A stretch of DNA of 64,000 bases from Cyclobacterium marinum DSM 745 (lineage in GTDB: Bacteria > Bacteroidota > Bacteroidia > Cytophagales > Cyclobacteriaceae). The stretch is taken from positions 5,500,001 through 5,564,000 of the forward strand of contig NC_015914.1 in the NCBI RefSeq assembly GCF_000222485.1. Direction: 5' to 3'. The notes under the pieces were generated by a model. The model saw only the letters and a list, made by a program, of their open reading frames with translations, did not search any database and had not been told where the DNA came from. The stretch's first letter is position 1. Each line of letters begins with the position of its first letter. The position numbers were made by a program, and so were the translations under genes. This document shows, piece after piece, positions 1 to 49,291 of the stretch.

Positions 1-734
1 GTTACGGCCAGTTGAAGAATTAATGAGAGAAACAATAGTAGAACAAAATCACGTTTCACATTTGACTCTGACTTTTGGCCTACTTCTATGATATTAAGAT
101 TTTGTGCTTTGGGGTTTTTGAGCCAACCGATTACCAGTAACAAAATAATTGTTCCTAATAAGGCCACTGCCAGGAATGGGATACTGAATCTATCCAATAG
201 CAAGTGCCCCATTCTCGTGTCCAAATGTAAATTGGTTTGTGCCAGGTAACCACCAATCATAGGCCCGGTAATCACTCCTGTACTGACAGCCACTCCCGAC
301 CAGGCAAGCACTTTTCTACGCTGCATGCTGTTGGTAAGGTCGCTGAGAAAAGCATTGCCCACAGGTATAACCGAAGACGAGAATATACCGCCTAGAATAC
401 GGGCTACATACAGCATAAGCAAAGAAGTAGATAAGCCGGTTAATACCTGCATAATAACAAAGCCTGATAACCCCATAGTGATCAGCACCTTGCGACCGAA
501 ACGATCGGACAGTTTGCCCCAAATAACAGCAAAGAGAAGCTGAAAAAACGGGTAAATGCTGGTGAGAATTCCAATGTGATAGTTGATATCCTCTTCAGCC
601 ACAATACCAGATTTTAAAGCAAGCCTTTCGGTATAGTAGGGCAAAACGGGAAGTAATACACCATACCCGCTCATAACTACAAAAATACTTAACAGAATAA
701 TGATGATCCTGCCAAGGATTTTGCGATTACCCAT
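1..734 (-). CDS. MFS transporter, DHA1-like (3' end outside window)
   Basis: This is the N-terminal 244 codons of a major facilitator superfamily transporter; the gene runs off the left edge and stays open to base 1. Reading the minus strand from the ATG at 732-734 gives several hydrophobic helices. The loop 2-3 signature GKLSDRFGRK, at about residues 73-82, is the classic MFS motif A. The layout resembles drug:H+ antiporters of the TetA/MdtG type, but the substrate cannot be told. The start overlaps the stop of the copper ATPase by one base (TAATG), so translation is probably coupled and this is the last gene of a PPK2-CopB-MFS unit. The context suggests export of a toxic compound or metal complex, which is inference. 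Confidence 0.85.
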   Translation of the reverse strand, partial: MGNRKILGRIIIILLSIFVVMSGYGVLLPVLPYYTERLALKSGIVAEEDINYHIGILTSIYPFFQLLFAVIWGKLSDRFGRKVLITMGLSGFVIMQVLTGLSTSLLMLYVARILGGIFSSSVIPVGNAFLSDLTNSMQRRKVLAWSGVAVSTGVITGPMIGGYLAQTNLHLDTRMGHLLLDRFSIPFLAVALLGTIILLLVIGWLKNPKAQNLNIIEVGQKSESNVKRDFVLLLFLSLILQLAV

Positions 735-2821
735 TATTTGTTACCGATTTTCTTCTTCAGTAGCTGCGCATTAATGGCGACTATGATCGTACTCAAACTC
801 ATGAAAACCGCGCCAACTGCCGGACCTAAGACGAAACCGGATGTGTAAAGCACCCCTGCTGCCAAAGGAATAGCAACTGTGTTATAACCGGTAGCCCATA
901 TCAGGTTTTGAATCATTTTATTATAAGTAGCCTTACCAAACAAAATCAGGTTGGCTATATCCTGTGGATTGCTGTTTACTAAAATAATGTCGGCTGTTTC
1001 GGCTGCTACATCTGTACCAGAACCTACGGCAATACCTACATTGGCCTGAGCAAGTGCCGGGGCATCATTCACCCCATCACCTGTCATGGCCACAAACTCA
1101 TCTTTAGCTTGTAGGTCCTTCACGATTTCTACCTTTTGATGAGGTAACACTTCTGAATAGTATCCGTCAAGGCCTAGTTCATTACTTACGGCCTTGGCCA
1201 CTGTTTCATTATCACCGGTGGCCATCATTACCTTTATGTCATTGTTTTTAAAGACCTTGATCGCCTTGGCACTTTCCGGTCTGATCTCATCGGCCAGCGC
1301 AATATATCCTGCAAGTTTGTTGTCAACAAGCACAAAAACCACTGTCTCTGCTGCACTGCTATAGGCACCTTCTGGTATGGAAATGTTTTGGTCTTTAAGA
1401 TAGCCAGGACTCACTACTTTTACATCTTTACCTTCCACTACGGCTTCAACACCTTTCCCGGTAATGGCGTTGAAGTTTTCAGGTTTAGGCACTGAAATGT
1501 TCTTCTCTTTTACTTTTTTCATAATACCTACTGCAATGGGGTGCTCCGAGCTTTGCTCCAATGCACTGGATAGCCTAAGCAGATCGTCTGCTTCCATTGG
1601 TTGATCTACTGTTTCCACACGTGTGACTCCAAAATCTCCTTTGGTCAATGTTCCGGTCTTATCAAAAACAAGGGCTGAAATCTTTCTGGATTCTTCAAAT
1701 GCCGTTCTGTTACGTATTAATAATCCATTCTGAGCAGAGACTGCTGTAGATATGGCTACTACCAATGGAATCGCTAATCCAAGTGCATGGGGACAGGCTA
1801 TGACCATTACCGTTACCATTCTCTCCAAGGCATATACAAAAGGAAAGCCCAGAAACAGCCATGTTGCCAGCGTACCGAATCCTATCGCCAATGCAATATA
1901 GGTAAGCCACTTGGCGGCACGGTCTGAGAGATTTTGCATTTTTGACTTAGACTTTTGCGCATCTTGTACCAGCGTAATTACCTTATTGAGGTAGCTGTCT
2001 TTACCTGTATGCTCTACTTTTACTTTTAGTGAGCCATTGCCATTGAGTGACCCTCCGATTACTTTATTCTCAAGGCCTTTTTTTACCGGTTTGGATTCCC
2101 CGGTCAGCATAGACTCATTCAGGTAACTTTCCCCCTCTACGATAATGCCATCAGCCGGAACTTTTTCACCGGGTTTAATCAAAATAATATCATCTTTTTG
2201 CAAGTCTTCCAGCTTCACATCTTCTACCGTGTCACCTTTGACCCGATGCGCTTCTGAGGGCATCATGCTTACCAATAACTGCAGGGCTTTTGAAGCTCCC
2301 AGTACGGATTTCATTTCCAGCCAGTGGCCGAGTAGCATGATATCAATCAGGGTGGCCAGTTCCCAAAAAAAGTCTTCTCCTTCAAGGCCGAACACTGTTG
2401 CGGAACTATAAAAATAGGCAACACTAATGGCCATGGATATTAAAGTCATCATGCCCGGGGCACCTTCCTTCAGCTCATCCTTCAATCCTTTCAGAAAAGG
2501 CCAGCCTCCGTAAAAATAAACGATGGTAGAAAGCCCGAACAGAATGTAAGCATTGCCCGGCAGCAGCCACTCATAACCGAAAAATCCCTGGATCATTGGC
2601 GAAAAAACAAGTATAGGGACAGTGAGTACCAGCGATATCCAGAATCGCTTTTTGAAGTCCTCTATCATCATTTTATGATGATCATGTCCCATTTCACCAT
2701 GCCCGGGGTTGTGACCCGAATGACTACTATGCCCATGTCCTTCATGTCCGGAATGATCTTCATGCTTTTTACTTTCTTCGTGCTTATGGTGTGTGTGATT
2801 ATGCTCTTTATGATTTTCCAT
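734..2821 (-). CDS. copB: Copper-translocating P-type ATPase, CopB (P1B-3) type
   Basis: This inner-membrane ATPase exports copper or silver ions. At 695 aa it has the expected order of parts: a His-rich cytosolic tail (residues 1-50, more than a dozen His), TM helices, the actuator TGES (240-243), the ion-path CPH motif (343-345), the phosphorylation site DKTGT (387-391), an HP dipeptide of the nucleotide domain (427-428) and GDGVNDAP (581-588). CPH in place of CPC, together with a His-rich rather than an HMA N-terminus, is the hallmark of the CopB subgroup. The gene lies 12 bp downstream of the PPK2 gene and overlaps the MFS start by one base. The two Cus/CopA-like metal clusters further along fit a copper role. 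Ion specificity (Cu+, Cu2+ or Ag+) cannot be read from sequence. Confidence 0.93.
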   Translation of the reverse strand: MENHKEHNHTHHKHEESKKHEDHSGHEGHGHSSHSGHNPGHGEMGHDHHKMMIEDFKKRFWISLVLTVPILVFSPMIQGFFGYEWLLPGNAYILFGLSTIVYFYGGWPFLKGLKDELKEGAPGMMTLISMAISVAYFYSSATVFGLEGEDFFWELATLIDIMLLGHWLEMKSVLGASKALQLLVSMMPSEAHRVKGDTVEDVKLEDLQKDDIILIKPGEKVPADGIIVEGESYLNESMLTGESKPVKKGLENKVIGGSLNGNGSLKVKVEHTGKDSYLNKVITLVQDAQKSKSKMQNLSDRAAKWLTYIALAIGFGTLATWLFLGFPFVYALERMVTVMVIACPHALGLAIPLVVAISTAVSAQNGLLIRNRTAFEESRKISALVFDKTGTLTKGDFGVTRVETVDQPMEADDLLRLSSALEQSSEHPIAVGIMKKVKEKNISVPKPENFNAITGKGVEAVVEGKDVKVVSPGYLKDQNISIPEGAYSSAAETVVFVLVDNKLAGYIALADEIRPESAKAIKVFKNNDIKVMMATGDNETVAKAVSNELGLDGYYSEVLPHQKVEIVKDLQAKDEFVAMTGDGVNDAPALAQANVGIAVGSGTDVAAETADIILVNSNPQDIANLILFGKATYNKMIQNLIWATGYNTVAIPLAAGVLYTSGFVLGPAVGAVFMSLSTIIVAINAQLLKKKIGNK

Positions 2822-2833
2822 AATGACTATTTT

Positions 2834-3565
2834 TTATTTGTTCGGGTATTTCAGATTTAGTTTTTCAAGCTGTTCGGCTAATATTTTAGCAGCAGTATAG
2901 TTGCGAAACCAACGCTTATCTGCAGGGATGATGTGCCAAGGCAAGTGATCACATGCATTAAGTAGGGTATCGTAAGCATCCCGGAAATCATCCCATTGGT
3001 TGGGTACCAGTTCATCTTCTTTCGTATACTTCCAGCGTTTGTGTGGTTTCGTTTTACGCTCTTCAATACGCTCTACCTGCTCATCAGCAGATATATGTAA
3101 GTAGTATTTCAAGATCAAAGTATTATTGGCTAGCAGGTGATGTTCCAATTCATTGATCAAATTGATGCGGTGATCCAATACATCGCCTGATAGACTTTTA
3201 TTGACGGAAGGCACCAAAACATCTTCATAGTAGGATCGATTAAAGACCCTGATCTTTCCTTTCTCAGGAAAATGAGGATAAATGCGCCACAAAAAATCAT
3301 GTTTAAGCTCGTCAGCCGAAGGCTTTTTAAAAGAAGTAACCTGCACACCTTGTGGGTTCATTCCACTAAAAGCATGACGGATGACCCCATCCTTTCCCGA
3401 GGTATCAAGCCCCTGAAGAACAATTAGCATGCTGTACCTTCCATCGGCATAAAACTTATTTTGCAGGTGAAAAAGCTCTTTTCGGATTTTTTTCAGTGCA
3501 TTTTTAGTTTCCATTTTGATCGCTTCTTTAGGTGGTAACGTGGATATGTTATCTAACTCAATCAT
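2834..3565 (-). CDS. ppk2: Polyphosphate kinase 2 family protein
   Basis: PPK2 enzymes transfer phosphate between polyphosphate and nucleoside mono- or diphosphates. The 243-aa length fits a single-domain PPK2. The Walker A-like GLDTSGKDG is at 52-60, followed by FSGMNPQGV (66-74), and the lid/Walker B region FNRSYYEDVL is at 108-117. The profile is closest in my judgement to the class III-like 'polyphosphate:nucleotide phosphotransferases', but class is not certain. The ATG overlaps the stop of the upstream remnant (ATGA). In this island it could regenerate ADP or ATP during energy stress, and it would complement the AMP phosphorylase and PRPP synthetase nearby by acting on AMP or ADP. That link is inference. 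Confidence 0.9.
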   Translation of the reverse strand: MIELDNISTLPPKEAIKMETKNALKKIRKELFHLQNKFYADGRYSMLIVLQGLDTSGKDGVIRHAFSGMNPQGVQVTSFKKPSADELKHDFLWRIYPHFPEKGKIRVFNRSYYEDVLVPSVNKSLSGDVLDHRINLINELEHHLLANNTLILKYYLHISADEQVERIEERKTKPHKRWKYTKEDELVPNQWDDFRDAYDTLLNACDHLPWHIIPADKRWFRNYTAAKILAEQLEKLNLKYPNK

Positions 3566-4530: not shown

Positions 4531-5844
4531 TTATTCTGGTTCATCCGTTTTCCATTGTAAAAACCTCCTTTCTCCAACAAATACTAAAAACATCAGTACT
4601 ATGGAAACCACAATTACCAAAAAATCATTGGATACCTTTATCCAGAGGAATGCGCCTAATACAATAAGGTCAAGTAAAATGGCGGCAATAACAATGGCAA
4701 CATTGACATTTATTTTTTTTCTAAGATTTTTTAATACACCCCATTGGAGTATTACATCCATTGTTAGGTAAAAAATAGCTCCCAGAGAGGCAATACGGGT
4801 TAGATCGAAGAATGCCGTGAGGGTAATGGCAATAATCATCGTATAAATCAGCATGTGCTTTTGCAATCGCCCCGGCATTCCGAAATGTTTGTGTGGGATT
4901 AGATTTATTTCCGTAAGCATGGCGGTCATCCTTGAAACGGCAAACATGCTGGCAATGACCCCTGAAATAGTAGCTACAATAGCAATACCCACAGTAAACC
5001 ATAAACCGTACTTTCCAAATGCAGGTTTAGAAGCTTCTGCTAACGAAAAATCTTTTGCGGCTAAAATCTCTGGGATTGACAAATTGGCTGAAACTGCCAA
5101 AGCCACGAGTAAATACACCAACGTGCAAATAAAGAGCGAAATCATAATGGCGCGCCCTACATTCTTATTAGGGTTTACAATCTCACCACCGCTGTTTGTA
5201 ATAGTTGTAAAGCCTTTATAAGCCAGAATGGTAAAAGCCAAAGCTGCTATATAACTGGTTGCCGTATAGTCACCAGAAACAGAGGAAGGTAAGGCTTCAG
5301 CAAATGAGAAGCCTGCTGCCCACAGACCCCCAATGGCAAATATAGCAAGACCTCCTATTTTGATAACTGCCATCATCAAGGAAGACCGGCCAATTACCTT
5401 ATTACCAGAAATATTGATTAAAAAGGCAACTACCAACAATAAAACGCCCAAAATAGGCACCCAAATACTATTTTTCTGCACATCAAAAAGTTGTAAGGTA
5501 TATGCTCCAAATGTCCGGGCAACCAAGCTTTGACCAATCACCATTGAAAATGCCATTAAAAGTGATCCCGCAGCAGTAATCGTACCTGGTCCATAGGCTT
5601 TTTTGAGATACATGGCGATACCACCTGCTGATGGGTAAGCATTGGACAACTTTATGTAGGTATAAGCACTGAAATAAGAGATGACGGCTCCTACCAAAAA
5701 AGCTAAGGGAAACAAAGTCCCTGAAAGATCCGCCACCTGACCAAGTAAAGCAAATATACCGGCACCTATCATCACTCCGGTGCCTAGCGCCACTGCTCCG
5801 GTTAAACTTAGGCTATTCTTTTTGTAGTTATTCATATCTGTCAT
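4531..5844 (-). CDS. APC-family amino acid permease
   Basis: This is a polytopic inner-membrane protein of 437 aa with about 12 hydrophobic segments. The conserved first helix TGVMIGAGIFALLGQ places it in the amino acid-polyamine-organocation superfamily. The C-terminus ends in a helix followed by a charged tail. Substrate is unknown. It sits 16 bp after the exported hypothetical gene and 37 bp before the thioredoxin-rhodanese gene, so it belongs to the long unit that starts near 11.2 kb. A close paralogue (50953-52227, 424 aa) shares the start (NSLSLTGA), most helices and the FDLTRIASLGAI/FDLSRIASLGAI region. It appears to be one half of a duplicated permease-rhodanese module. Confidence 0.88.
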   Translation of the reverse strand: MTDMNNYKKNSLSLTGAVALGTGVMIGAGIFALLGQVADLSGTLFPLAFLVGAVISYFSAYTYIKLSNAYPSAGGIAMYLKKAYGPGTITAAGSLLMAFSMVIGQSLVARTFGAYTLQLFDVQKNSIWVPILGVLLLVVAFLINISGNKVIGRSSLMMAVIKIGGLAIFAIGGLWAAGFSFAEALPSSVSGDYTATSYIAALAFTILAYKGFTTITNSGGEIVNPNKNVGRAIMISLFICTLVYLLVALAVSANLSIPEILAAKDFSLAEASKPAFGKYGLWFTVGIAIVATISGVIASMFAVSRMTAMLTEINLIPHKHFGMPGRLQKHMLIYTMIIAITLTAFFDLTRIASLGAIFYLTMDVILQWGVLKNLRKKINVNVAIVIAAILLDLIVLGAFLWIKVSNDFLVIVVSIVLMFLVFVGERRFLQWKTDEPE

Positions 5845-5860
5845 TGAGCCGATTTAGATA

Positions 5861-6538
5861 TTAATAGTTATCGTAATATTTCATAGTAAAGTAAGCTCCA
5901 TTGTCCTCAGTGAATTTCTGACGTTGCAATACAAAATTTTCAGTCAGGTATTCTTCCACGACATAGATTATCGTTTTAATACGGATTCCCATTATGTATG
6001 CTTCAATAACAGCTTCACTACTTATTTTTATCGATTGGTCCTCTACCTCCTTTTTCCTGTTTTTTATGGTGACTAGGCTTTTAGATCCGAAAAAACTTAA
6101 CATCCCGGATTCAACACTCATCTTCAATTGAATATCTATTAATGCTACTCCTTTACCCAATTCATACAGTCGCTGAAAATCTTCTGAAGTGACATCCACA
6201 CTTATCTTTTTGTCATTAGGATCGGTAAAGGGAAATACATTCAATAACACCTCAAACTCATTGCGTTTACACTGATAGGTGGTCGTGTACTTTTCTGTAA
6301 GCTGGCTGCTTGCGTCATAAAGCTCGGTTATTACCTTTATCAGATAATTTTTGCCCTCCTGCTCTAACTCACCTGTAAAAAATATCTGCTTACCCTGCAA
6401 GTCTCCATTTTGATCAAAGTTTTCACGAACTATTCTTTTATTTGCTATTTGCTCGATGAACATTTCTTTCTCCTGTCCAAACAATATTACAGGGGAAAGT
6501 TGTAGAAATGCAATTAAGGTGAGCAAAACACTACGCAT
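5861..6538 (-). CDS. Exported protein of unknown function
   Basis: I do not recognise this 225-aa protein. It begins with a basic residue and a hydrophobic stretch ending near FGQ (residues 1-22), a plausible signal peptide, so it is probably periplasmic. The rest is mixed alpha/beta with many charged residues, no Cys pairs and no membrane segment. Its start overlaps the end of the PRPP synthetase gene by 8 bp and the APC permease gene follows after 16 bp, so it is transcribed with the nucleotide-turnover genes. No function is proposed. Confidence 0.75.
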   Translation of the reverse strand: MRSVLLTLIAFLQLSPVILFGQEKEMFIEQIANKRIVRENFDQNGDLQGKQIFFTGELEQEGKNYLIKVITELYDASSQLTEKYTTTYQCKRNEFEVLLNVFPFTDPNDKKISVDVTSEDFQRLYELGKGVALIDIQLKMSVESGMLSFFGSKSLVTIKNRKKEVEDQSIKISSEAVIEAYIMGIRIKTIIYVVEEYLTENFVLQRQKFTEDNGAYFTMKYYDNY

Positions 6539-7427
6539 GATTTTTCATTAGTTTGTGAATATTTTTTGCCAGAATATCTGAAAGATCTATTTGGTTACTT
6601 TCATGCGGTATGGTGTTGCATGTTACGACCTGGCGCACCCCTGCATTTTTTAGGTCAACATAGGCTGAGCCTGCAAATACGGCATGGACTCCAACACAAA
6701 CCGGTGGACGCATGCCTGCTGTTTTTAAATGACCTACTGTCTCTATCATTGTTCTGGCCGTAGAAATGATATCATCCACAAGTACAGGAGTGTGATCTTT
6801 GTATTTTGTTACATCTGGGACGGACACTTCAACATCCCGGTCACCATGTCTTACCTTCTCTAACACTGTAAAAGGTGCGTCGGCTTCTTTTGCTACCTGA
6901 GAAACCCACTGCTCACTTTCGCTATCTGGTCCAATCAAAACAGGGTTTTCAATATTGGAGCTGATCCATTTTGAAATATGGGATGCAGCATGAATCAGTT
7001 TATTAGGTATACTGTAAATTTCACTCAAAGCACTTCTACGGTGCAGGTGGGGATCAACGGTGGTCAATGTATCGGCAAAGCCTGATATCAATTGAGCAAA
7101 ATAAGTAGATGTAACTCCTTCTCCCGGATTGAACTGTTTATCCTGACGCATGTATGCCAGATAAGGCGCTACCAGGCACGTACAGGCAGCACCGAGCTCT
7201 TTGGCCGTCTTACTAAAAAAATACAAGGATAGTAATTTTGCATCCGGCATGTATAAGGTACAGACCATCACTACACATTTATCTTTAACATCCGAATGTA
7301 TCTGAATATAGCTTTCTCCATCTGGGAATTTCCGGATGGTAGCTTCTCCTTTTTCAGCCTTGAGATTTTTGGCTATTTTATCTGTAAGGCTTTCGTTGCC
7401 CGGCAAAGCAAAAACTATCATATCCAT
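6531..7427 (-). CDS. Ribose-phosphate pyrophosphokinase-like enzyme (divergent, archaeal-type context)
   Basis: PRPP synthetases make PRPP from ribose 5-phosphate and ATP in the cytosol. This 298-aa protein has the family landmarks: RKFPDGE (32-38), YMRQDK (92-97), the VDPHLHR metal/ATP-binding segment (124-130) and the PRPP-binding loop VLVDDIISTARTM (215-227). It is shorter than the roughly 310-315-aa housekeeping bacterial enzyme and differs from it, so it is probably a specialised second copy. It is 4 bp downstream of the archaeal-type AMP phosphorylase. One idea is that it works on sugar phosphates released from nucleotides, or in reverse. Because the housekeeping gene is presumably elsewhere, I leave the symbol empty. 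Confidence 0.85.
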   Translation of the reverse strand: MDMIVFALPGNESLTDKIAKNLKAEKGEATIRKFPDGESYIQIHSDVKDKCVVMVCTLYMPDAKLLSLYFFSKTAKELGAACTCLVAPYLAYMRQDKQFNPGEGVTSTYFAQLISGFADTLTTVDPHLHRRSALSEIYSIPNKLIHAASHISKWISSNIENPVLIGPDSESEQWVSQVAKEADAPFTVLEKVRHGDRDVEVSVPDVTKYKDHTPVLVDDIISTARTMIETVGHLKTAGMRPPVCVGVHAVFAGSAYVDLKNAGVRQVVTCNTIPHESNQIDLSDILAKNIHKLMKNHA

Positions 7428-7431
7428 AATA

Positions 7432-8952
7432 TCATGATTCTTTGATTTTAATAATTTCCTTTTGGGTGTTTAGGTAAGAAAGAGCGTACTCAAGCTCCCC
7501 CTTTGACTCTGCGTGAATTTCAAATATAATGTCATTCTTTTTAACAGCACTACCTAAAGAGATATAGAGTAGAACTCCGGCGGTCTTAACACTCGGTGCT
7601 CCTGCTAGCTTGGCAACTTTAGCCAGTCTGCGGTTATCAATTTCAAAAACCCTCCCTTTCTGATTGGAATAAACAGGATGTTTAAGAGTAGCAATTCCGG
7701 GCTCCTTAAAATGCCCTTGTGCCTTACATATTGCCAGAAATTTGTCGTAAGCAGTTCCGTTTCTTATTATTTTCAAGGCTTTAAATTCCCCAGTGCCTAC
7801 CACGGCCATACCGGCCATTTCCAATAATTCGCCAGCTAAGATTACAGCTCTTTCCCTAAGATCAGCTGGAGCATTCTTCTCATTCCTCAATACGGCCAAA
7901 ACATCTTTGGCCTCAAGTGAAGGGCCGATACCTCGTCCTACGGGCTGAAAACCATCAGACAACACAATTTCTATATTCAGCCCTATGGCTTTACCTACTG
8001 CAATCATTTTTTCTGATAAATGCTCAGCAGCTAACTGAGAACGAACTTTGGCAGTAGGCCCAACGGGAATATCAATGACTACATCGGTAGAACCAGCTGC
8101 TGCCTTTTTAGAAAGCACAGAAGCGATCATCTGCCCTTCGCTATCAATATCTAATGCTTTTTCTACACGGATAAGTATATCATCAGCTGGACTAAGCTGT
8201 ACTGATCCGCCCCAGGCCAGGCAACCACCTTCCTGCTTTACCACTTTTTTCATTTGCGCTATGGTAAGGTTTACATTGGTCATCACTTCCATGGTATCTG
8301 CCGTACCTGCTGGTGATGTTATGGCCCTGGATGAGGTTTTAGGGATAATGAGTCCCGCAGCCGCTACGATGGCGACTACTATTGGCGTTGTTCTATTACC
8401 AGGAAGCCCTCCAATGCAATGTTTGTCATATATATTCAATTCATCCCATTCCAATTTGTATCCAATATTGATCATTGATTTTGTGAGCGCAATTACTTCC
8501 TCTTTATTAAGCGAATCACCAGTACAGGAGGCAAGGAATGCTGAAAGTTGAAGGTTTGAAAGATTCCGATTGACAATATCTTTTACAATAGTATCAAACT
8601 CTCCCTGGTTCAACCGATTTCCATAAATTTTTTTACGAACATTGCCCATTGAATCAAGGGCATCTAAATGGCTCAGGGAAAGTGGCTCCCCTTCTATAGC
8701 CCCCAATGCATCTATTGCAGCATTTGAAAGCCCAAGTTGATCGTGCCTTAATTGTGTTTCATTGTCCCATACAATGAGAGATGCAACGAGGGTTTTATTG
8801 TCTTTTGTAACTCGAATCCTATTCAAAGCTTCAAAACCTTCTGAAATACAAACCGGACAATCTTTACGCATAAATACCATGTACTCATTGCGTGAATCAA
8901 TGTCCAGCCTAACTAATCGCAATTCGAAATGTTCCCTCCTTTTTTCTTCCAT
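7432..8952 (-). CDS. deoA: AMP phosphorylase / archaeal-type thymidine phosphorylase family
   Basis: AMP phosphorylase converts a nucleoside 5'-monophosphate and phosphate to ribose 1,5-bisphosphate and a free base. In archaea it feeds the pentose bisphosphate pathway. The protein has the extra N-terminal domain of the archaeal form, then KHCIGGLPGNRTTP (phosphate site) and SSRAITSPAGTADTME, which are diagnostic. I take the ATG at 8950-8952 as the start: it overlaps the upstream stop (TGATG) and gives 506 aa, the usual family length. An in-frame codon at 8997 would overlap the upstream gene by 46 bp. No ribose-1,5-bisphosphate isomerase or RuBisCO is in the window. The symbol is the usual family name; the substrate is more likely AMP than thymidine. 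Confidence 0.9.
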   Translation of the reverse strand: MEEKRREHFELRLVRLDIDSRNEYMVFMRKDCPVCISEGFEALNRIRVTKDNKTLVASLIVWDNETQLRHDQLGLSNAAIDALGAIEGEPLSLSHLDALDSMGNVRKKIYGNRLNQGEFDTIVKDIVNRNLSNLQLSAFLASCTGDSLNKEEVIALTKSMINIGYKLEWDELNIYDKHCIGGLPGNRTTPIVVAIVAAAGLIIPKTSSRAITSPAGTADTMEVMTNVNLTIAQMKKVVKQEGGCLAWGGSVQLSPADDILIRVEKALDIDSEGQMIASVLSKKAAAGSTDVVIDIPVGPTAKVRSQLAAEHLSEKMIAVGKAIGLNIEIVLSDGFQPVGRGIGPSLEAKDVLAVLRNEKNAPADLRERAVILAGELLEMAGMAVVGTGEFKALKIIRNGTAYDKFLAICKAQGHFKEPGIATLKHPVYSNQKGRVFEIDNRRLAKVAKLAGAPSVKTAGVLLYISLGSAVKKNDIIFEIHAESKGELEYALSYLNTQKEIIKIKES

Positions 8953-10322
8953 CACAATGTTATAGTTTGATTGAGTTTGGGCAGTTGTGAAGGCCATCCT
9001 TTCTTGTCTTTAAGGGCTCTTGACAAAGCCTCTGCCTGCTCCGTTTCTCCGTGAATGATAAATACCCTATCTGGCTTTTCTTTTATTTCTGAAAGCCAAT
9101 CTATAAGGTCATTTTGATCTCCATGAGCACTAAGCCCCTCAATCTGTTCAATATGCATTTTGAATGGTAGCCATTTGCCATACACTTTGATTTCTTTTGC
9201 ACCTTCCAACAACTTTCTTCCTCTGGTCCCTTCGGCCTGATAACCAACAAAAAGTAAGGTATCCTTGTCATTGCCAGATCTGGTTTCCATATAATTTAGA
9301 ATTCTACCGCCAGTCATCATGCCGCTTCCAGCTATTACTATCTTGGATTTATTGTCTTCTCGCAGAGCCAACGTTACTCTATAGTTACTGACTACCTCAA
9401 AGTGGGAACACATCTCATCACATTCATCAGGTTTAAGTTTGTGCCAATCTCGAGAAGAATGAAAGAGATCAAGCACATTGGCACCCATGGGGCTGTCCAT
9501 AACCATAGGTATTTTCGGAATCCTTTTTTCTTTCAAAAGCCTCCATATCATCAGCATCATTAGTTGAGTACGCTCTACTGCAAAACTAGGTATAAATAGG
9601 CTGCCTCCACGATTAACAGTTTCGGTAATGATGCGTTCTAACGCTGGAATAATCGTTTCTTCTTCGGGATGAATTCTACCTCCATAGGTTGATTCAATTA
9701 AAAGCACCGTTGCTTTTTTAGGTTTTTTTGGAGGGTATAGTAATAAATCAATTTTCCGTCCGATATCTCCAGAAAACACAACTCTTTTGTGGTTAGTTTC
9801 AACCTCAATAAAAGTTGACCCTATAATGTGTCCATTGTATTGCCACCTCACCTTAAAATCGTTTTCGATAACATGCCAGCCACCCTCTGTAACAGGGGTG
9901 AAAAGATTGATTGTATTTTCAACATCCTTTAGGTCATAGAAGGCCTCTGCGGGGCTATGTTTGCTATAATTCTCCTTGTTAGCCCGAGAAGCCTCTTCTT
10001 CTTGAATTTTAGCACTGTCTTTTAATATTATTTCAGCGATGTTTAAAGTTGGCGCACTTCCATATATTCGACCTTTGAAGCCTAATTTAACCAAACGCGC
10101 AAGGTAACCCGTATGATCTAGATGTCCATGGGTGAGTACTACAGCATCTATAGTAGCTGGATCATACTCTGGTTGTTCCCAATTGAGGAGGCGTAATTCT
10201 TTTAATCCCTGGAAAAGGCCACAATCAACCATCAGCTTTTTGCTACCCGTTTCGAGCAAATATTTGGAGCCGGTAACAGTTCCGGTCGCTCCTAAAAATT
10301 TTATTGTCATTTTGTCTTTCAT
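8952..10322 (-). CDS. Beta-CASP metallo-beta-lactamase nuclease (RNA-specificity type)
   Basis: This 456-aa cytosolic protein begins with a metallo-beta-lactamase fold: the metal motif THGHLDH is at 64-70 and SGDIGRK lies further on. It continues into a beta-CASP insertion with a DSPMGANV-type segment and IVIAGSGMMTGGRI, and closes with an RNA-metabolising MBL tail (HIEQIEGLSAHGDQNDL and VFIIHGE). This is the CPSF-73/YSH1-like group, which includes RNA endo- and exonucleases. The signature and length make RNA cleavage the best guess, but DNA cannot be excluded. It is 21 bp after the ATP-cone gene and is translationally coupled to the AMP phosphorylase. Two ATGs (10322 and 10310) are possible starts. 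Confidence 0.88.
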   Translation of the reverse strand: MKDKMTIKFLGATGTVTGSKYLLETGSKKLMVDCGLFQGLKELRLLNWEQPEYDPATIDAVVLTHGHLDHTGYLARLVKLGFKGRIYGSAPTLNIAEIILKDSAKIQEEEASRANKENYSKHSPAEAFYDLKDVENTINLFTPVTEGGWHVIENDFKVRWQYNGHIIGSTFIEVETNHKRVVFSGDIGRKIDLLLYPPKKPKKATVLLIESTYGGRIHPEEETIIPALERIITETVNRGGSLFIPSFAVERTQLMMLMIWRLLKEKRIPKIPMVMDSPMGANVLDLFHSSRDWHKLKPDECDEMCSHFEVVSNYRVTLALREDNKSKIVIAGSGMMTGGRILNYMETRSGNDKDTLLFVGYQAEGTRGRKLLEGAKEIKVYGKWLPFKMHIEQIEGLSAHGDQNDLIDWLSEIKEKPDRVFIIHGETEQAEALSRALKDKKGWPSQLPKLNQTITL

Positions 10323-10343
10323 CTTTTAGGTTCAAGTCAGACG

Positions 10344-11198
10344 TTATGATTCAGATCTCAAAGAGCAAATTTCTTTCCCTTCTTTTATTACACTTTTGAT
10401 ACGCCGTTTTGAAATACCTATTTCTTCGAGCAAATCAGCTCTATCACAGAGGTCTTTACAAAGCACTACCATCTTATCAATCAGTTTTTGCTTCTCAACC
10501 TTTGTGAGACTTGTAAGGCAAGTAACAGGGTGCAAACCATATAAATTGATCCTATCAATTAAACTTTCTTTTTTGGGATAATCCCAGCTTATAAGTACCA
10601 AACCAGAACATTCACCATACTGAATGGCATCTTTGGTAAATCGAGTATTGGTTACTACCCAGCCCTGATGAAACTTTTTTGAATGTTCTGTACGTTTCTC
10701 CCATTGCTTTTTCACATCCTCAAACCGAGATTTGATATAGAGTGGTATTTTCACGTTGCATTTGTAACCCTGCCGATTATGAAACTTGCACTCCACCATA
10801 AAATGCTTATCATCTTTTTCTGCTTCCACATCTATTTCGTGAGACACACAATGGCCCAGAATGATTACTCCGACTTTAGTGCGGTATCCCTGGTGTTTGA
10901 GAATTGCACCTACAAACTTTTCAAAGGGATAACCTGAAGGCCCCAGTTCTAAAATGGCTTGTTTAATTTTATACCTTCCCGCTATAGGTTTTGAGTGCTT
11001 TCGCAGTAATGAATATGCCTCGTTATAGATTTTCTTTGTCGACATACCATCAAAGAGTTGCCCTTTTATCTTGACAACGATTTTGTCTATCATATCCAAA
11101 CTAGCTCCAGCTCTTTCAAGAGATTGCTGGAGTTTTATTACAGAAAAAGGTGCTTCTTCTCCTGAGGCTTTGGTTATAAAAACGATCTTCTCTGACAT
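10344..11198 (-). CDS. ATP-cone domain fused to restriction-endonuclease-like domain
   Basis: Residues 1-88 match an ATP-cone, the nucleotide-sensing module of ribonucleotide reductases and NrdR. Residues of about 92-210 look like a PD-(D/E)XK nuclease of the Mrr/type IV kind: Asp123 in EIDV, then the VECK motif with Glu136 and Lys138, and a later WVVTNTRFTKDA strand. The C-terminal 60 residues are helical. A nucleotide-gated DNA or RNA endonuclease is the natural reading, but no experimental role is known to me. It is the first gene of the unit with the beta-CASP nuclease, AMP phosphorylase and PRPP synthetase. A TGTATGA-type motif lies 63 bp upstream of its start. Confidence 0.82.
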   Translation of the reverse strand: MSEKIVFITKASGEEAPFSVIKLQQSLERAGASLDMIDKIVVKIKGQLFDGMSTKKIYNEAYSLLRKHSKPIAGRYKIKQAILELGPSGYPFEKFVGAILKHQGYRTKVGVIILGHCVSHEIDVEAEKDDKHFMVECKFHNRQGYKCNVKIPLYIKSRFEDVKKQWEKRTEHSKKFHQGWVVTNTRFTKDAIQYGECSGLVLISWDYPKKESLIDRINLYGLHPVTCLTSLTKVEKQKLIDKMVVLCKDLCDRADLLEEIGISKRRIKSVIKEGKEICSLRSES

Positions 11199-14824: not shown

Positions 14825-15543
14825 CTATAGATTTCGTAGCTGACTTCCTTTTACACTTCTCTTTTTCCAGACGAACGGGGCCCAGGCTCCGGCGATCAAA
14901 GCCACTTTCTCGAACCCTGTGTCGGGATCAAGCGAAAACGTCACGCCCGAACAGGCCATGTCGGAACGTACCATCAATTGCACGCCTACCGAGAGGGCCA
15001 CCTTGATATACTCTAAGCCGTTATCTGTACGGTATTTGATGGCCCTGTCCGTAAAAAGGGAGGCATAGCACCGGTGGCAGGCTTTTAATAGATTGTCAAT
15101 TCCGGTAACGTTCAAATAGGTTTCCTGCTGGCCCGCAAAACTGGCGTTGGGAAGATCCTCGGCCGTGGCACTGCTGCGTGCCGCAAAGGAAACGCCTTCT
15201 CCATATTTGCCGGTCAGATAATCATGACCTTCCTTTATTATTTCCTCCAATTCTTTGTGAAACGATCTGCTTAACATCAATTGCCTGCACTTTTCCCCTA
15301 CCTCCTGTAGATTAGAAAAATCGCTGGTATCAAGTGTGGAAAGCATGGTGCTCAATTGTTTCCTAAGTCATTGTGGTCGAGGAAATCCCAATAGGCCTCT
15401 GAGGTAAGGGCAAAACCATATGGCACGGCAATACCTTTATCTGACAAGTTTTGGTACATTTCGCCAAGGGAAGCATTTTTACCCCCTACCTGTGGGATGT
15501 CGTTGATCCCTATTTCATTAAAATATTTGATGTATGTTTTCAT
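14825..15543 (-). pseudogene. ppsA: Phosphoenolpyruvate synthase, N-terminal remnant with frameshift
   Basis: Two overlapping frames together encode the first ~240 residues of PEP synthase, which normally exceeds 780 aa. The upper part (15352-15543) has VGGKNASLGEM and ends at a TGA just after LDHNDL. The downstream frame (14825-15355) resumes with RKQLSTMLSTLDTSD and continues to SFAARSSATAEDLPNASFAGQ and MVRSDMACSGVTFSLDPDTG. Joining them needs one missing base near 15360. After GAW (about 14880) the sequence turns non-homologous and stops, so the swivelling-His and PEP/pyruvate domains are absent. This is a truncated, inactive gene next to nifJ, with which PEP synthase would have formed a pyruvate-handling pair. 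Confidence 0.85.
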
Positions 15544-33067: not shown

Positions 33068-34096
33068 CTATTGATTAATACCTAGACTTTTATTGGTCAT
33101 TGAGATGGATTTATTACCATCAGTCTCGATTCCTGTAAGTGCGCGAATGGCATCTATGGTCTCGGGGATTACAATCGCTTGGTTATCGACCACATAGGCG
33201 TAAAAAAGTTCATCGCCCACAACCTTTAGCATATCTTCCCAAAGGGCTACCTCGTACATATCACCCCAAGGTCTGCCCATATCCATGAACAATTCCTTGA
33301 TGGTGTTGTTAGATACCAAGCCTTGGTCATAGTGTATCAATTTGATTCGGCTCGAAGTTTTAAAGGCCTTGAGCACTTCTTCCTTAGACGCTTTTTTCTT
33401 TAACTTAACGGTCCAATAATGCATATGGCTAAGCGTTTCCGGTACCTTTACCGCCATGGTAATTACGTCCAGCTCTGGATCTACACTTTGAGCATCCGGT
33501 CCCTGATGACTGGGAATGTCTTTTTCCGGTACCATCGTATTCATAATACCGCCGAGGTGGCTTTCCCAAGGGTCGGTAGCTCTGCGTAGCAAAGTTCCGC
33601 GAGCATTTTCTAACAAATCTGCTTTTTTGAGAGCAGTGAGTGAACGTAAAATGGAGGTTGTATTGCAAGAAACTACCCGTGTGCTCTCTCGATTTAAACC
33701 TGAAGCATAATTATTTTCTGCACTAAATGAATGGCCTGTGGTTTCATGCTTTTCACCTCCTTGAAGAATAAATTTGATTTTACGTGCTTTATATGTCTCC
33801 ACGTTTTTAGCTGCAACCTTCTTTGGTGTGCAATCAACTACCAGATCACTAATATCCAATAGCTCGCCCATGCCACCTGCCAGAGGAATTCCCACCTGCT
33901 CCATACTAACTTTTGCCTCATCAGAAGCAGCATAAACCAGATACCCCTTCTTTACAGCAGTTTGTATCCTCCAATCACTAATTACATCACATACTCCGAC
34001 TAATTCCATGTCATTTTGCAGTGCGATGGCATCCGCCACTCTTTTGCCGATTACGCCATATCCTATAAGTGCTATTTTCTTTTTCATCTTATCCAT
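33068..34096 (-). CDS. Type II (archaeal-type) glyceraldehyde-3-phosphate dehydrogenase, copy 1
   Basis: The 342-aa enzyme oxidises glyceraldehyde 3-phosphate to 1,3-bisphosphoglycerate with NAD(P). It has an N-terminal Rossmann IGYGVIGKRVADA (11-23), DCTPKK (88-93) and the catalytic VSCNTTS with Cys144. This is the form typical of Archaea, not the usual bacterial GapA. The start could be the ATG at 34096 or the one 9 bp later (M4). A paralogue is at 35294-36322. The fbaB remnant follows it directly. A TGTATGA-type motif lies 65 bp upstream. Catabolic use fits the neighbouring genes. Confidence 0.9.
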   Translation of the reverse strand: MDKMKKKIALIGYGVIGKRVADAIALQNDMELVGVCDVISDWRIQTAVKKGYLVYAASDEAKVSMEQVGIPLAGGMGELLDISDLVVDCTPKKVAAKNVETYKARKIKFILQGGEKHETTGHSFSAENNYASGLNRESTRVVSCNTTSILRSLTALKKADLLENARGTLLRRATDPWESHLGGIMNTMVPEKDIPSHQGPDAQSVDPELDVITMAVKVPETLSHMHYWTVKLKKKASKEEVLKAFKTSSRIKLIHYDQGLVSNNTIKELFMDMGRPWGDMYEVALWEDMLKVVGDELFYAYVVDNQAIVIPETIDAIRALTGIETDGNKSISMTNKSLGINQ

Positions 34097-40353: not shown

Positions 40354-40635
40354 TCATCGGTATTTTTTATTAAAAGATATATTGTAGACCGTAGCTATGA
40401 GTGCGCCAAATAACCAGCCCAGTATGAACATTTCTACCAGTCCGATGAGTGCTTCGGTCCAGGGTACGTCCATTCTGATGATGGGGCTGGTGTCAAGTCC
40501 GTGGAGCAAACTGTTAAAAAACAGGATGGTACCTTCACGGCCTACAGTGGCCATCAGTATAATACAGCCCAAGTAGAATACCACACCTGCTACCCCCCAA
40601 GCCAATGCGAATTTTTTAATGTTGATGTGTTGCAT
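40354..40635 (-). CDS. DUF5676-like small membrane protein
   Basis: The 93-aa protein starts at the ATG at 40633-40635 (MQHINIKKFALAWG) and has two TM helices with a conserved GWLFGALIATVYN end. A longer frame upstream (to 40818) reads through the out-of-frame neighbour and is low-complexity, so I reject it. DUF5676 proteins recur in metal-resistance neighbourhoods in this phylum. It overlaps the His-rich neighbour by 20 bp. Confidence 0.75.
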   Translation of the reverse strand: MQHINIKKFALAWGVAGVVFYLGCIILMATVGREGTILFFNSLLHGLDTSPIIRMDVPWTEALIGLVEMFILGWLFGALIATVYNISFNKKYR

Positions 40636-40849
40636 GATCGTTTTCGTTTTTGGATTGATTTTGCTGGCTTCCGTCATGTCCAGAATGGTCTCCATGACTT
40701 CCCAACATAAATAGGTGGCCCACAAAAAATACAATGATGAAAATAAATAGCGAGTTAGTTCCATTAAAGCCGAAAACCGGCAATAAGAAGAGCAGCAGGA
40801 AGATGCCCAGGCATCCAACCAGCATCCATATCATATGATTATTTCTCAT
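40616..40849 (-). CDS. Small His-rich membrane protein (DUF2933-like)
   Basis: The 77-aa protein has two hydrophobic segments (about 6-26 and 31-50) and a C-terminal hydrophilic tail rich in His (GSHGDHSGHDGSQ and the HATHQH end). The tail is well suited to bind copper or zinc at the membrane surface. It is 11 bp downstream of the Met-rich lipoprotein and overlaps the DUF5676 gene. Family assignment is by resemblance only. Confidence 0.65.
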   Translation of the reverse strand: MRNNHMIWMLVGCLGIFLLLFLLPVFGFNGTNSLFIFIIVFFVGHLFMLGSHGDHSGHDGSQQNQSKNENDHATHQH

Positions 40850-48052: not shown

Positions 48053-48120
48053 ATGAGAGGTTCAATTTTTTGCCCAAAATAGTTATTTTGGGTTTGCACC
48101 AAAAAACACGAACCTCTCAT
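48053..48120. repeat. Nested hairpin over the transposase start
   Basis: An 11-bp outer stem, ATGAGAGGTTC (48053-48063) with GAACCTCTCAT (48110-48120), encloses a 9-bp inner stem CCCAAAATA/TATTTTGGG (48073-48081, 48084-48092). The outer right arm includes the first two bases of the ATG at 48119. A transcript entering from outside could fold and hide the start codon. The same structure is present in copy 2. Confidence 0.7.
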
Positions 48121-49291
48121 GTGTAATATTACATTGTTTTCACAGATTATTAAAAAGATTGACCGTTCAATTTTCAAAAAATTGGTAAAAGAAAAGCAAA
48201 CCGACAAGGGATGCAAAGGATTTGACAGCTGGACCCACCTGGTTTCGATGTTGTTCTGCCATTTTGCCAAGAGCACATCGGTAAGGGATATTTCCAATGG
48301 GCTTCGGTCTGCCACTGGGAACCTTAACCACCTTGGCATTATCAAAGCCCCATCGAAATCAAGTATCAGCTATCAAAACAAACGAAGGGATTCGGACCTT
48401 TTCAGGGACCTTTACTATTCTCTGTTGGGAAGTTTAGGACAGCAGGCATCTGTCAAGAGGTCCAAACTCAGGATCAAGGTTCCTGTTTATTTGCTGGATG
48501 CCACAGTTATTAGCCTTTGCCTTTCGGTGTTTGATTGGGCTACTTTCCGTACCAAAAAGGGAGCGGTAAAGATGCATACGCTTTTAGAATATGACGGAAA
48601 ACTTCCTGTTTACGTGAATATTACCGAAGGGAGTGTCGGTGACAATAAGGGGGCTTACAACATCCCCCTAGAAAAAGGATCAGTGATCGTCGCCGACCGA
48701 TATTACAATGACTTCCCTATGCTCAACGTTTGGGACAGCAAGGGGGTATTCTTCGTGATCAGACACAAGGGCAACCTTGCTTTCAGCTCCATAGAAGAAC
48801 GTGAACTTCCCACAACAACCGCCCAGCATGTGCTCAAAGACGAAGAAATCGAACTGACCAACCCACAGTCCAAAGCCAAATATCCTGGAAGGCTTAGAAG
48901 AGTGGCTGTGTGGGATGAGGAAAACGGGCAGACCATAGAACTGATCACCAACAACTTTGCTTGGGCCGCACAGACCATTGGGGACCTCTACAAATCAAGA
49001 TGGGAAATTGAAGTGTTTTTTAGAGACATTAAACAACTATTGCATATTAAAACCTTTATCGGGACCTCCAAAAATGCGGTAATGATCCAGATATGGACGG
49101 CATTGATCACCATCCTTCTGCTCAAAGTCATGAAGGCAACAGCAAAATTCGGGTGGCACCTCTCCAATCTGGTCGCCTTTATCCGACTCAATATTTTTGT
49201 TAAAATCGAACTGCAAAAATGGCTTGATAGCCCATTTATCGAACCCGACAAACCACCCCAGAATGTAGTACAGGGGGATCTATTTTCTTAA
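48119..49291 (+). CDS. IS4-family transposase, copy 1
   Basis: The 390-aa DDE transposase has an N-terminal DUF4372 domain and a C-terminal DDE domain with Asp in LLDATVIS, Asp in VIVADRYYND, and the IS4-type Y-(2)-R-(3)-E-(6)-K signature YKSRWEIEVFFRDIK. The protein is identical to that of copy 2 and the frame is intact, so both elements may be active. Confidence 0.95.
   Translation: MCNITLFSQIIKKIDRSIFKKLVKEKQTDKGCKGFDSWTHLVSMLFCHFAKSTSVRDISNGLRSATGNLNHLGIIKAPSKSSISYQNKRRDSDLFRDLYYSLLGSLGQQASVKRSKLRIKVPVYLLDATVISLCLSVFDWATFRTKKGAVKMHTLLEYDGKLPVYVNITEGSVGDNKGAYNIPLEKGSVIVADRYYNDFPMLNVWDSKGVFFVIRHKGNLAFSSIEERELPTTTAQHVLKDEEIELTNPQSKAKYPGRLRRVAVWDEENGQTIELITNNFAWAAQTIGDLYKSRWEIEVFFRDIKQLLHIKTFIGTSKNAVMIQIWTALITILLLKVMKATAKFGWHLSNLVAFIRLNIFVKIELQKWLDSPFIEPDKPPQNVVQGDLFS

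Follow-up and report, generated by a model that had tools for sequence, protein, structure and literature searches.

What brings two nucleases, an AMP-phosphorylase-family enzyme and a divergent PRPP synthetase together in one run of bacterial genes, and what is the fate of ribose 1,5-bisphosphate (R15P) in bacteria that have an NMP phosphorylase and no R15P isomerase? In the window analysed here, a stretch of 64,000 nucleotides from Cyclobacterium marinum DSM 745, five tightly spaced minus-strand genes running from 11198 to 5861 encode, in this order, an ATP-cone/Mrr nuclease, a beta-CASP nuclease, an AMP-phosphorylase-family enzyme (gene 3, hereafter AMPp), a divergent PRPP synthetase paralogue (gene 4, hereafter PRS') and an exported protein, with successive gaps of +21, -1, +4 and -8 bp and a TGATG at 8952 forming the junction of genes 2 and 3. 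An earlier note on this DNA had drawn these reading frames, down to the tight gaps and the TGATG, and all five were recovered where it had put them. The gene run that it described holds for the five genes and not for its end at 5861, as four more co-directional genes continue the run:

10344..11198, minus strand: gene 1, ATP-cone plus Mrr/AF1548-like PD-(D/E)XK nuclease, 284 aa (Pfam; accessory)
8952..10322, minus strand: gene 2, beta-CASP metallo-nuclease with RMMBL domain, 456 aa (Pfam; frequent partner)
7432..8952, minus strand: gene 3, AMPp, AMP/NMP phosphorylase family (PRK04350 over cut-off; core)
6531..7427, minus strand: gene 4, PRS', divergent PRPP synthetase paralogue with loop GPDSESEQW (PRK07199; core)
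5861..6538, minus strand: gene 5, exported beta-rich protein, 225 aa, without a family match
4531..5844, minus strand: APC-family permease, 16 bp past gene 5; order the same in L019
3819..4493, minus strand: thioredoxin/rhodanese-like protein, 37 bp past the APC permease
2834..3565, minus strand: PPK2 polyphosphate kinase (PPK2_rel_1, 293 bits, cut-off 247), 253 bp past the rhodanese protein
734..2821, minus strand: heavy-metal P-type ATPase with His-rich N-terminus and CPH motif, 12 bp past PPK2

The APC permease probably shares one transcript with genes 1 to 5, and the P-type ATPase is presumably CopB-like. In Marivirga sericea (L019) the order is ATP-cone, beta-CASP, AMPp, PRS', gene 5, APC permease, PPK2 and P-type ATPase, and the PPK2 neighbourhood recurs in L019, L020, L021, L030 and L033.

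AMPp scores 645.6 bits against PRK04350 (cut-off 434) and 481.4 bits against AMP_phos, beneath the equivalog cut-off of 535; it matches PDB 4ga5, which we take to be the T. kodakarensis enzyme, with E 5e-99, its nucleotide-site residues are conserved at 95% or more (n = 95 rows), and the alignment of homologues agrees with an ATG start at 8952, not 8997. It is thus a predicted NMP phosphorylase of the type found in the archaeal NMP shunt. PRS' scores 405.8 bits against PRK07199 (cut-off 322), a family that NCBIfam labels a diphosphokinase, and keeps the PRPP synthetase fold together with its catalytic, metal and loop residues. Its pyrophosphate loop, however, reads GPDxESxQW in 85 of 85 rows, and the canonical SPDxGG or PDxG(G/A) in none of them. 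Relative to the class III-like archaeal PRPP synthetases (1u9y, 3mbi), PRS' has PDxES where they have PDxG(G/A) and HLHR where they have DLHA or NPHE and, unlike theirs, its distribution is tied to that of AMPp.

How tight is this tie? We surveyed 80 GTDB loci with AMPp, counting PRS' at more than 150 bits. PRS' is present in 72 of them, directly downstream of AMPp in 64, whereas beta-CASP is found in 56 and the ATP-cone gene in 21; all four genes occur in 18 (L046 among them having beta-CASP on the opposite strand), and the four-gene set is therefore not confined to this genome. Some of the eight loci without a PRS' match above the threshold lie on short contigs, and L056, L081 and L082 hold beta-CASP and AMPp without PRS'. 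Across 398 Pseudomonadota genomes, AMPp is found in 40 of the 41 with PRS' and PRS' in 40 of the 45 with AMPp, 39 of 43 PRS' places lying directly downstream of AMPp, and the same three of 395 Bacteroidota genomes pass both cut-offs (hypergeometric p ~3e-48 and 1e-7, respectively, with relatedness ignored). The AMPp and PRS' distances are likewise correlated (Mantel r 0.77; none of 2000 permutations as high). Because gene order is kept across phyla and the genes co-occur genome by genome, the grouping goes beyond chance; on this evidence from gene content, AMPp and PRS' are an almost obligate pair, and we regard them as the core and the nucleases as accessories because the pair is nearly inseparable whereas beta-CASP and the ATP-cone gene are so much less constant. 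The four families and their co-directional arrangement, as given in the earlier note, are thus confirmed by domain and family matches and by ORF positions, as is its link between AMP phosphorylase and PRPP synthetase by co-occurrence and adjacency; its nuclease and ribose-salvage unit survives as an AMPp-PRS' pairing, but not with nucleases at its core.

What, then, might PRS' do for AMPp? The archaeal NMP shunt is described in Thermococcus kodakarensis (PMC9700705) with a homologous NMP phosphorylase bearing the same nucleotide-site residues, and there, too, R15P is reached without PRPP. That shunt (the pentose bisphosphate pathway) continues with an isomerase and RuBisCO, whereas the operon has a PRPP-synthetase paralogue instead. 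The absence of both archaeal enzymes from the window, pointed out earlier, extends to the whole genome: RuBisCO is found in none of the 8 Bacteroidota genomes in which AMPp matched, this one included (23 of 46 Pseudomonadota genomes have some RuBisCO), and R15P isomerase (TIGR00511) exceeds its cut-off of 314 bits in 0 of the 54 genomes checked (0/8 and 0/46), 24 of which (1/8 and 23/46) give sub-threshold isomerase-like matches of 139-187 bits. Nor does PhnN exceed its cut-off of 156 bits in any of 11 genomes with AMPp and PRS', all 11 giving weak matches of 38-57 bits. By contrast, four of the five Pseudomonadota genomes having AMPp without PRS' carry a PhnN-AMPp fusion. Such fusions occur in Bosea, Inquilinus and others: a listing of 120 relatives of one of them has 119 with lengths of 640-718 aa, and where names are given these read PhnN, thymidine phosphorylase or fusion protein. 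The fusion has the same phosphorylase domain as the operon and, as would hold for PRS', a partner acting on R15P, but that partner is a P-loop kinase in the same polypeptide and not a separate PRS'; no PRS' was detected in the four fusion genomes, and the fusion AMPp domain forms a separate clade. Since AMPp is fused to the R15P kinase PhnN, R15P is likely to be the metabolite common to both AMPp partners.

On balance, we lean slightly towards a mobile low-energy stress module that recycles nucleotide ribose and is centred on R15P. In an energy-poor cell, the beta-CASP nuclease would degrade nucleic acid towards NMPs, joined in Bacteroidota and a few others by the ATP-cone nuclease, which may read ATP/dATP; AMPp would then convert NMP + Pi to base + R15P, and PRS' would accept R15P and return R5P, perhaps by R15P + AMP <-> R5P + ADP. 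This would be the chemically cheapest solution, as PRPP-synthetase chemistry would be kept with one phosphate fewer, the beta-phosphate still being attacked and AMP serving as partner; the active site of E. coli PRPP synthetase is described as holding R5P and ADP together (PMC9232217). R5P could join the pentose-phosphate pathway; a fair share of the carriers could instead send it through phosphoketolase and acetate kinase. Charging of the ADP could fall to PPK2 or to acetate kinase. Under standard conditions, the reaction R15P + AMP -> R5P + ADP is probably endergonic, and would therefore need product removal or the reverse direction; both steps run in reverse would amount to base salvage without PRPP, one bond cheaper. 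That PRS' has this new activity and forms with AMPp a PRPP-free, isomerase-free bacterial pathway, by which phosphate and ribose would pass between central metabolism and nucleotides derived from RNA and which islands for metal and hypoxia stress have carried across phyla, is a more specific proposal that we advance only tentatively.

Could PRS' simply be an ordinary, loosely regulated PRPP synthetase, AMPp freeing bases from NMPs and PRS' supplying the PRPP with which host phosphoribosyltransferases rebuild the nucleotides needed under stress, and R15P passing to an unrecognised phosphatase or kinase? Its fold, catalytic residues and NCBIfam label would fit, as would a 2026 preprint on PRPS diversity in which catalytic residues are described as kept across its own classes, as would be expected if PRPP synthesis were preserved (PMC13252144); moreover, PhnN-AMPp fusions adjoin a quinolinate-type phosphoribosyltransferase (QRPTase), a PRPP user, in both loci scanned of the four. 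We nevertheless consider this rather unlikely, since it explains neither the near-confinement of PRS' to AMPp genomes when a separate housekeeping PRPP synthetase is already present (in the window's genome, G000, the one checked) nor the fixed change in the pyrophosphate loop, and under it R15P would have no known consumer. A role as PhnN stand-in (R15P + ATP -> PRPP + ADP), by which NMPs would become PRPP for base exchange, is suggested by Pseudomonadota AMPp occurring either with PRS' (40/45) or fused to PhnN (4/45); it is improbable, because gamma-phosphate transfer would be required of an active site built for beta-phosphate attack and the phosphoketolase and acetate kinase neighbours would go unexplained.

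These neighbours are part of a broader pattern. AMPp loci are flanked mainly by metal-efflux and energy genes, within a very mixed island cargo: the P-type ATPase at 734..2821 has a best match in 49 of the 80 loci and lies on the same strand at most 5 kb from AMPp in 40, phosphoketolase does so in 17 (63 having none so placed) and acetate kinase in 5, and one or both of the latter fall within the core run in 5. Near the gene group on a Criblamydia plasmid lies an AbiE-type pair. Judged from sequence, the gene group moves horizontally among distant bacteria on metal-resistance, hypoxia and energy islands. Are its members then separately useful genes gathered by hitch-hiking on the same islands? 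The mixed cargo and the coming and going of beta-CASP and ATP-cone genes would suit this, but AMPp-PRS' order and adjacency survive across phyla and re-arranged islands, the genes overlap and a functionally matched AMPp fusion exists elsewhere, all of which makes hitch-hiking very improbable.

The low-energy module finds some support in Bradyrhizobium diazoefficiens, whose FixK2 microoxic set includes the same-named three genes and also a phosphoketolase-acetate kinase pair (PMC9104804, PMC6515984). There, the predicted operon bll3117-bll3116-bll3115 has the order AMPp-PRS'-MBL, with no ATP-cone named in the relevant entries (PMC9104804, PMC6515984); the run is up at 0.5% O2 (PMC6515984), and bll3117 and bll3115, like the pair bll2518-bll2517, are lowered in a fixK2 mutant and listed with a putative FixK2 site (PMC9104804), the rows for bll3115-bll3117 giving '-' for the 2008 direct FixK2 regulon and for bacteroid expression (PMC6515984). 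No FixK/FNR-type box occurs in the window, and other loci have them only sporadically (10/86). Phosphoketolase matched in two of eight genomes, one match being full-length, and not in G000; the phosphoketolase fate of R5P is therefore not available there.

As for the accessories, gene 1 is a predicted ATP-cone domain protein with the characteristic residues kept: Pfam matches are ATP-cone (26.6 bits, cut-off 25.8), Mrr_cat (36.6) and AF1548-like_C (32.8), the match to AF1548 (PDB 1y88) has E 7e-34, and both D123, E136 and K138 and the ATP-cone residues K10, G13, K22 and T54 are conserved at 95% or more (n = 23 rows). Gene 2 has Lactamase_B, Beta-Casp and RMMBL domains (Pfam). Among solved structures, ribonuclease TTHA0252 is the nearest to it in sequence (E 6e-69); with this enzyme, as with archaeal aCPSF1 and type VII CRISPR Cas14, it shares beta-CASP and RMMBL domains and motifs; it stays under the cut-offs of the Cas14 (364.2 bits, cut-off 800) and aCPSF1 (275 bits, cut-off 580) models and has no KH-domain match in Pfam. 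Gene 5, without a match to any family, occurs in 12 of the 80 AMPp loci and has 70 homologues; its predicted model (pLDDT 71) finds its best, weak fold match in the exported proteins BDI_3050/BF2203. The presence of two nucleases beside nucleotide-degrading enzymes, with a nucleotide-sensing domain on one of the nucleases, could suggest a defence or self-killing device in which a nucleotide-gated nuclease cuts nucleic acid while the other enzymes drain nucleotides, but this alternative, raised in the earlier note, is unsupported and highly improbable given partial PADLOC matches of only 14.8-17.2 bits, the lack of the ATP-cone gene from 59 of 80 loci, the metal-efflux and energy neighbours and the reported microoxic induction of the B. 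diazoefficiens counterpart.

The gene group may thus represent an undescribed route by which cells short of fuel regain sugar and phosphate energy from RNA. If true, it would explain the fate of R15P in bacteria with an NMP phosphorylase and without R15P isomerase, the PRPP-synthetase family could gain a reaction, and many genes on environmental plasmids and islands now named just 'thymidine phosphorylase family' or 'ribose-phosphate pyrophosphokinase' would acquire a function.

The five minus-strand genes lie where the earlier note had placed them, with intergenic gaps of +21, -1, +4 and -8, in a genome (G000) that forms a single contig of 6,221,273 bases, the window occupying positions 5,500,001-5,564,000. 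Family searches assigned the five products as follows:

Gene 1, minus strand: ATP-cone, Mrr_cat and AF1548-like
Gene 2, 8952-10322, minus strand: beta-CASP metallo-nuclease with RMMBL
Gene 3 (hereafter AMPp), 7432-8952, minus strand: PRK04350/AMP-phosphorylase family
Gene 4 (hereafter PRS'), minus strand: PRK07199 PRPP synthetase
Gene 5, minus strand: exported protein, no family match

Gene 1 (95% identity with a Cyclobacterium marinum protein) is, from its domains, a plausible nucleotide-gated nuclease, the nucleotide residues of its ATP-cone being read by comparison with those of NrdA. Gene 2 was not accepted as an ortholog of either type VII CRISPR Cas14 or aCPSF1, as it scored below the curated cut-off on both models (364 and 275 bits, respectively); the Cas14 score is the higher, and the beta-CASP family of gene 2 may bear on where the Cas14 nuclease domain originated. 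Gene 5 is given no function: its predicted model is of low confidence (pLDDT 71) and its fold matches are weak. Beyond gene 5 further genes follow in the same direction: an APC permease after 16 bp, a rhodanese protein after 37, PPK2 after 253 and, 12 bp further on, a heavy-metal P-type ATPase, presumably of the CPH/CopB kind; sigma-70 and terminator scans scored at the level of shuffled sequence.

The earlier proposal that four of these genes form one unit survives in part: the AMPp and PRS' pair is the core, and the nucleases are accessory. Across 398 Pseudomonadota genomes, 45 carry AMPp (E <= 1e-120) and 41 carry PRS' (E <= 1e-60), with 40 carrying both (hypergeometric p 3e-48, relatedness ignored), and 39 of the 43 places at which PRS' occurs lie directly downstream of AMPp; two of the other four are ~4 kb off and two are on contigs that bear no AMPp. 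Among 395 Bacteroidota, the three genomes over the AMPp cut-off are the same three that pass for PRS'. Pairwise distances of AMPp correlate with those of PRS' (Mantel r 0.77, 85 loci), of the beta-CASP protein (0.85, 66 loci) and of the ATP-cone protein (0.89, 23 loci); in each comparison none of 2000 permutations reached the observed value.

Gene order was surveyed in 80 GTDB loci, several on short contigs, which are the best-scoring 80 of 569 confirmed matches and hence lean to the window's relatives. In this best-scoring set (>150 bits for PRS', beta-CASP and ATP-cone), PRS' occurs in 72 loci, directly downstream of AMPp in 64, while beta-CASP occurs in 56 and the ATP-cone in 21; all four genes are found together in 18, so that the arrangement is not confined to this genome, and the five-gene set in 12. 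The same 80 loci contain a P-type ATPase in 49, phosphoketolase in 19 (in 17 within 5 kb and on the same strand), acetate kinase in eight and PPK2 in six, and phosphoketolase or acetate kinase interrupts the core run in five.

What do the genomes with AMPp and without PRS' carry instead? There are five in the Pseudomonadota sample, and in four of them (G703, G762, G836 and G846) a PhnN domain (164-186 bits against a PhnN cut-off of 156) is fused before AMPp; the fifth, G709, has a partial AMPp adjoining a beta-CASP gene on the opposite strand. The fusions are:

L137, 6149-8080: PhnN-AMPp fusion
L139, 7659-9977: PhnN-AMPp fusion
L140, 7619-9775: PhnN-AMPp fusion
L141, 7331-9433: PhnN-AMPp fusion

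A search with one fusion returned 3711 relatives among 7996 candidates; 119 of the 120 matches listed are 640-718 aa long, and where these 120 bear a name it is PhnN, thymidine phosphorylase or fusion protein. A quinolinate-type phosphoribosyltransferase gene adjoins the fusion in both of the loci scanned for neighbouring genes, L140 and L141. PhnN phosphorylates ribose 1,5-bisphosphate (R15P) to PRPP, as its family name, PRPP-forming 1,5-bisphosphokinase, records. Since the fused PhnN acts on R15P, this compound would be a product or a substrate of bacterial AMPp. Conservation of the nucleotide site agrees with such a role: G182, S208-S213, T217, D270, S278 and K302 of AMPp, which we take, from an alignment with the T. 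kodakarensis enzyme (presumably structure 4ga5), to correspond to the AMP-binding site of that enzyme, are conserved to 95% or more across 95 rows.

What, then, would consume R15P where AMPp is paired with PRS'? The archaeal pathway was rejected, since R15P isomerase passed its cut-off in none of 54 genomes, namely eight Bacteroidota with an AMPp match (including G060, with only a partial, sub-cut-off AMPp and lacking PRS' at E <= 1e-80) and 46 Pseudomonadota (the 45 with AMPp, fusion genomes included, and G837, with PRS' alone). PhnN likewise passed in none of 11 AMPp+PRS' genomes. Weaker model matches, in 24 of the 54 genomes for the isomerase and in all 11 for PhnN, are read as paralogues. 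As the known consumers thus stay below cut-off in AMPp+PRS' genomes, PRS' becomes, by elimination, the candidate R15P consumer.

The PRS' alignment comprised 85 rows from AMPp loci, proteins of <150 bits or <80% length being left out, and both PRS' motifs, the altered pyrophosphate loop GPDxESxQW and HLHR, also occur in five further proteins (L142-L145, by eye, and L148). They are kept in a divergent subgroup from G820 (L145), where PRS' adjoins a deep-branching AMPp, and G837 (L142), which has no AMPp match at E <= 1e-120. At residues 31-39 of gene 3, bacterial AMPp has an N-terminal D[C/S]xxC.SEG motif (C35 in 93 and C32 in 81 of 95 rows), absent from the one Bradyrhizobium AMPp compared and outside the part aligned with the archaeal structure; it is possibly a metal or redox site.

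The distribution of AMPp is patchy. Elsewhere in the genus it occurs in two of 11 genomes; it is over cut-off in three of 395 Bacteroidota, G060 being a fourth just under it, and it matches 156 of 72,556 plasmid records, 110 of them covering at least 80% of its length. The order ATP-cone, MBL, AMPp, PRS' is found on plasmids of Criblamydia and Pontibacter; MBL, AMPp, PRS' on those of Roseovarius and Variovorax; phosphoketolase, PRS', MBL, AMPp in Shinella; PRS', a phosphoketolase-like gene (annotated as xylulose 5-phosphate 3-epimerase), MBL, AMPp in Rhizobium sp. X9. In Legionella anisa, AMPp and PRS' are followed by an alternate ATP synthase. In a quick AMPp tree, Marinicella (Gammaproteobacteria), a Verrucomicrobia bin, an Acidobacteria bin and the Criblamydia plasmid fall among Bacteroidota, a placement that points to movement between phyla. 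Some AMPp proteins are identical to one another (L062-L064; L067-L068), which may stem from a recent transfer or from contaminated bins.

The remaining window is a stress, metal and energy region, with CusB- and OEP-type efflux parts, a multicopper oxidase, DUF305, DUF302 and a universal stress protein; a Na+/H+ antiporter, NDH-2 and pyruvate:ferredoxin oxidoreductase; and glyceraldehyde-phosphate dehydrogenases, phosphofructokinase, glycogen phosphorylase and amylase. DUF5676 (40354-40818), a glyceraldehyde-phosphate dehydrogenase (33068-34096), a P-type ATPase and an APC permease are common to the window and a Roseovarius plasmid island (L016). A DUF4372/DDE transposase gene occurs twice (48119-49291, plus strand; 58188-59360, minus strand) with 0 differences in 1173 bases, and with these two identical insertion-sequence genes the island is possibly mobile. 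Adjoining the operon, a 176-aa N-terminal piece of PEP-synthase/PPDK (14825-15355) looks like a remnant, the usual enzyme having ~800 aa.

The suggestion that the operon is defence-like was rejected, as it drew only weak PADLOC matches. The B. diazoefficiens genes bll3117 (thymidine phosphorylase family), bll3116 (PRPP synthetase) and bll3115 (MBL) rise at 0.5% O2, with log2 protein changes of 2.1, 4.4 and 2.9 and transcripts up 5.1-, 7.7- and 15.4-fold (PMC6515984 Table 2). They form a predicted operon with a putative FixK2 site before bll3117, and a fixK2 mutant shows bll3117 down 6.6-fold, bll3115 down 30.6-fold and phosphoketolase and acetate kinase (bll2518-bll2517) down ~10-fold (PMC9104804). 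Against a simple picture, the entries for bll3115-bll3117 in PMC6515984 carry '-' under both bacteroid expression and the direct FixK2 regulon of 2008. The same order occurs on a Bradyrhizobium septentrionale plasmid, whose PRS' (L147) has GPDAESEPW and DAHLHR, and gene order and names suggest that bll3116, too, is a PRS' of this kind. FNR/FixK-type boxes lie within -5000/+2500 of AMPp in 10 of 86 loci with plus-strand AMPp; the window has 0 matches against 0.56 expected, and hypoxia control of its operon through such a box was rejected for that reason.

The AMPp/PRS' unit is real, widespread and mobile, and co-occurrence and the fusion give good support for placing it at the R15P node. Among the open-licence PMC papers listed in searches, no title or displayed abstract presents the operon as a pathway or describes a PhnN-AMPp fusion. 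Whereas the archaeal NMP-phosphorylase pathway employs R15P isomerase and RuBisCO, here a PRPP-synthetase paralogue would take their place, and it is this form of the pathway that would be new.
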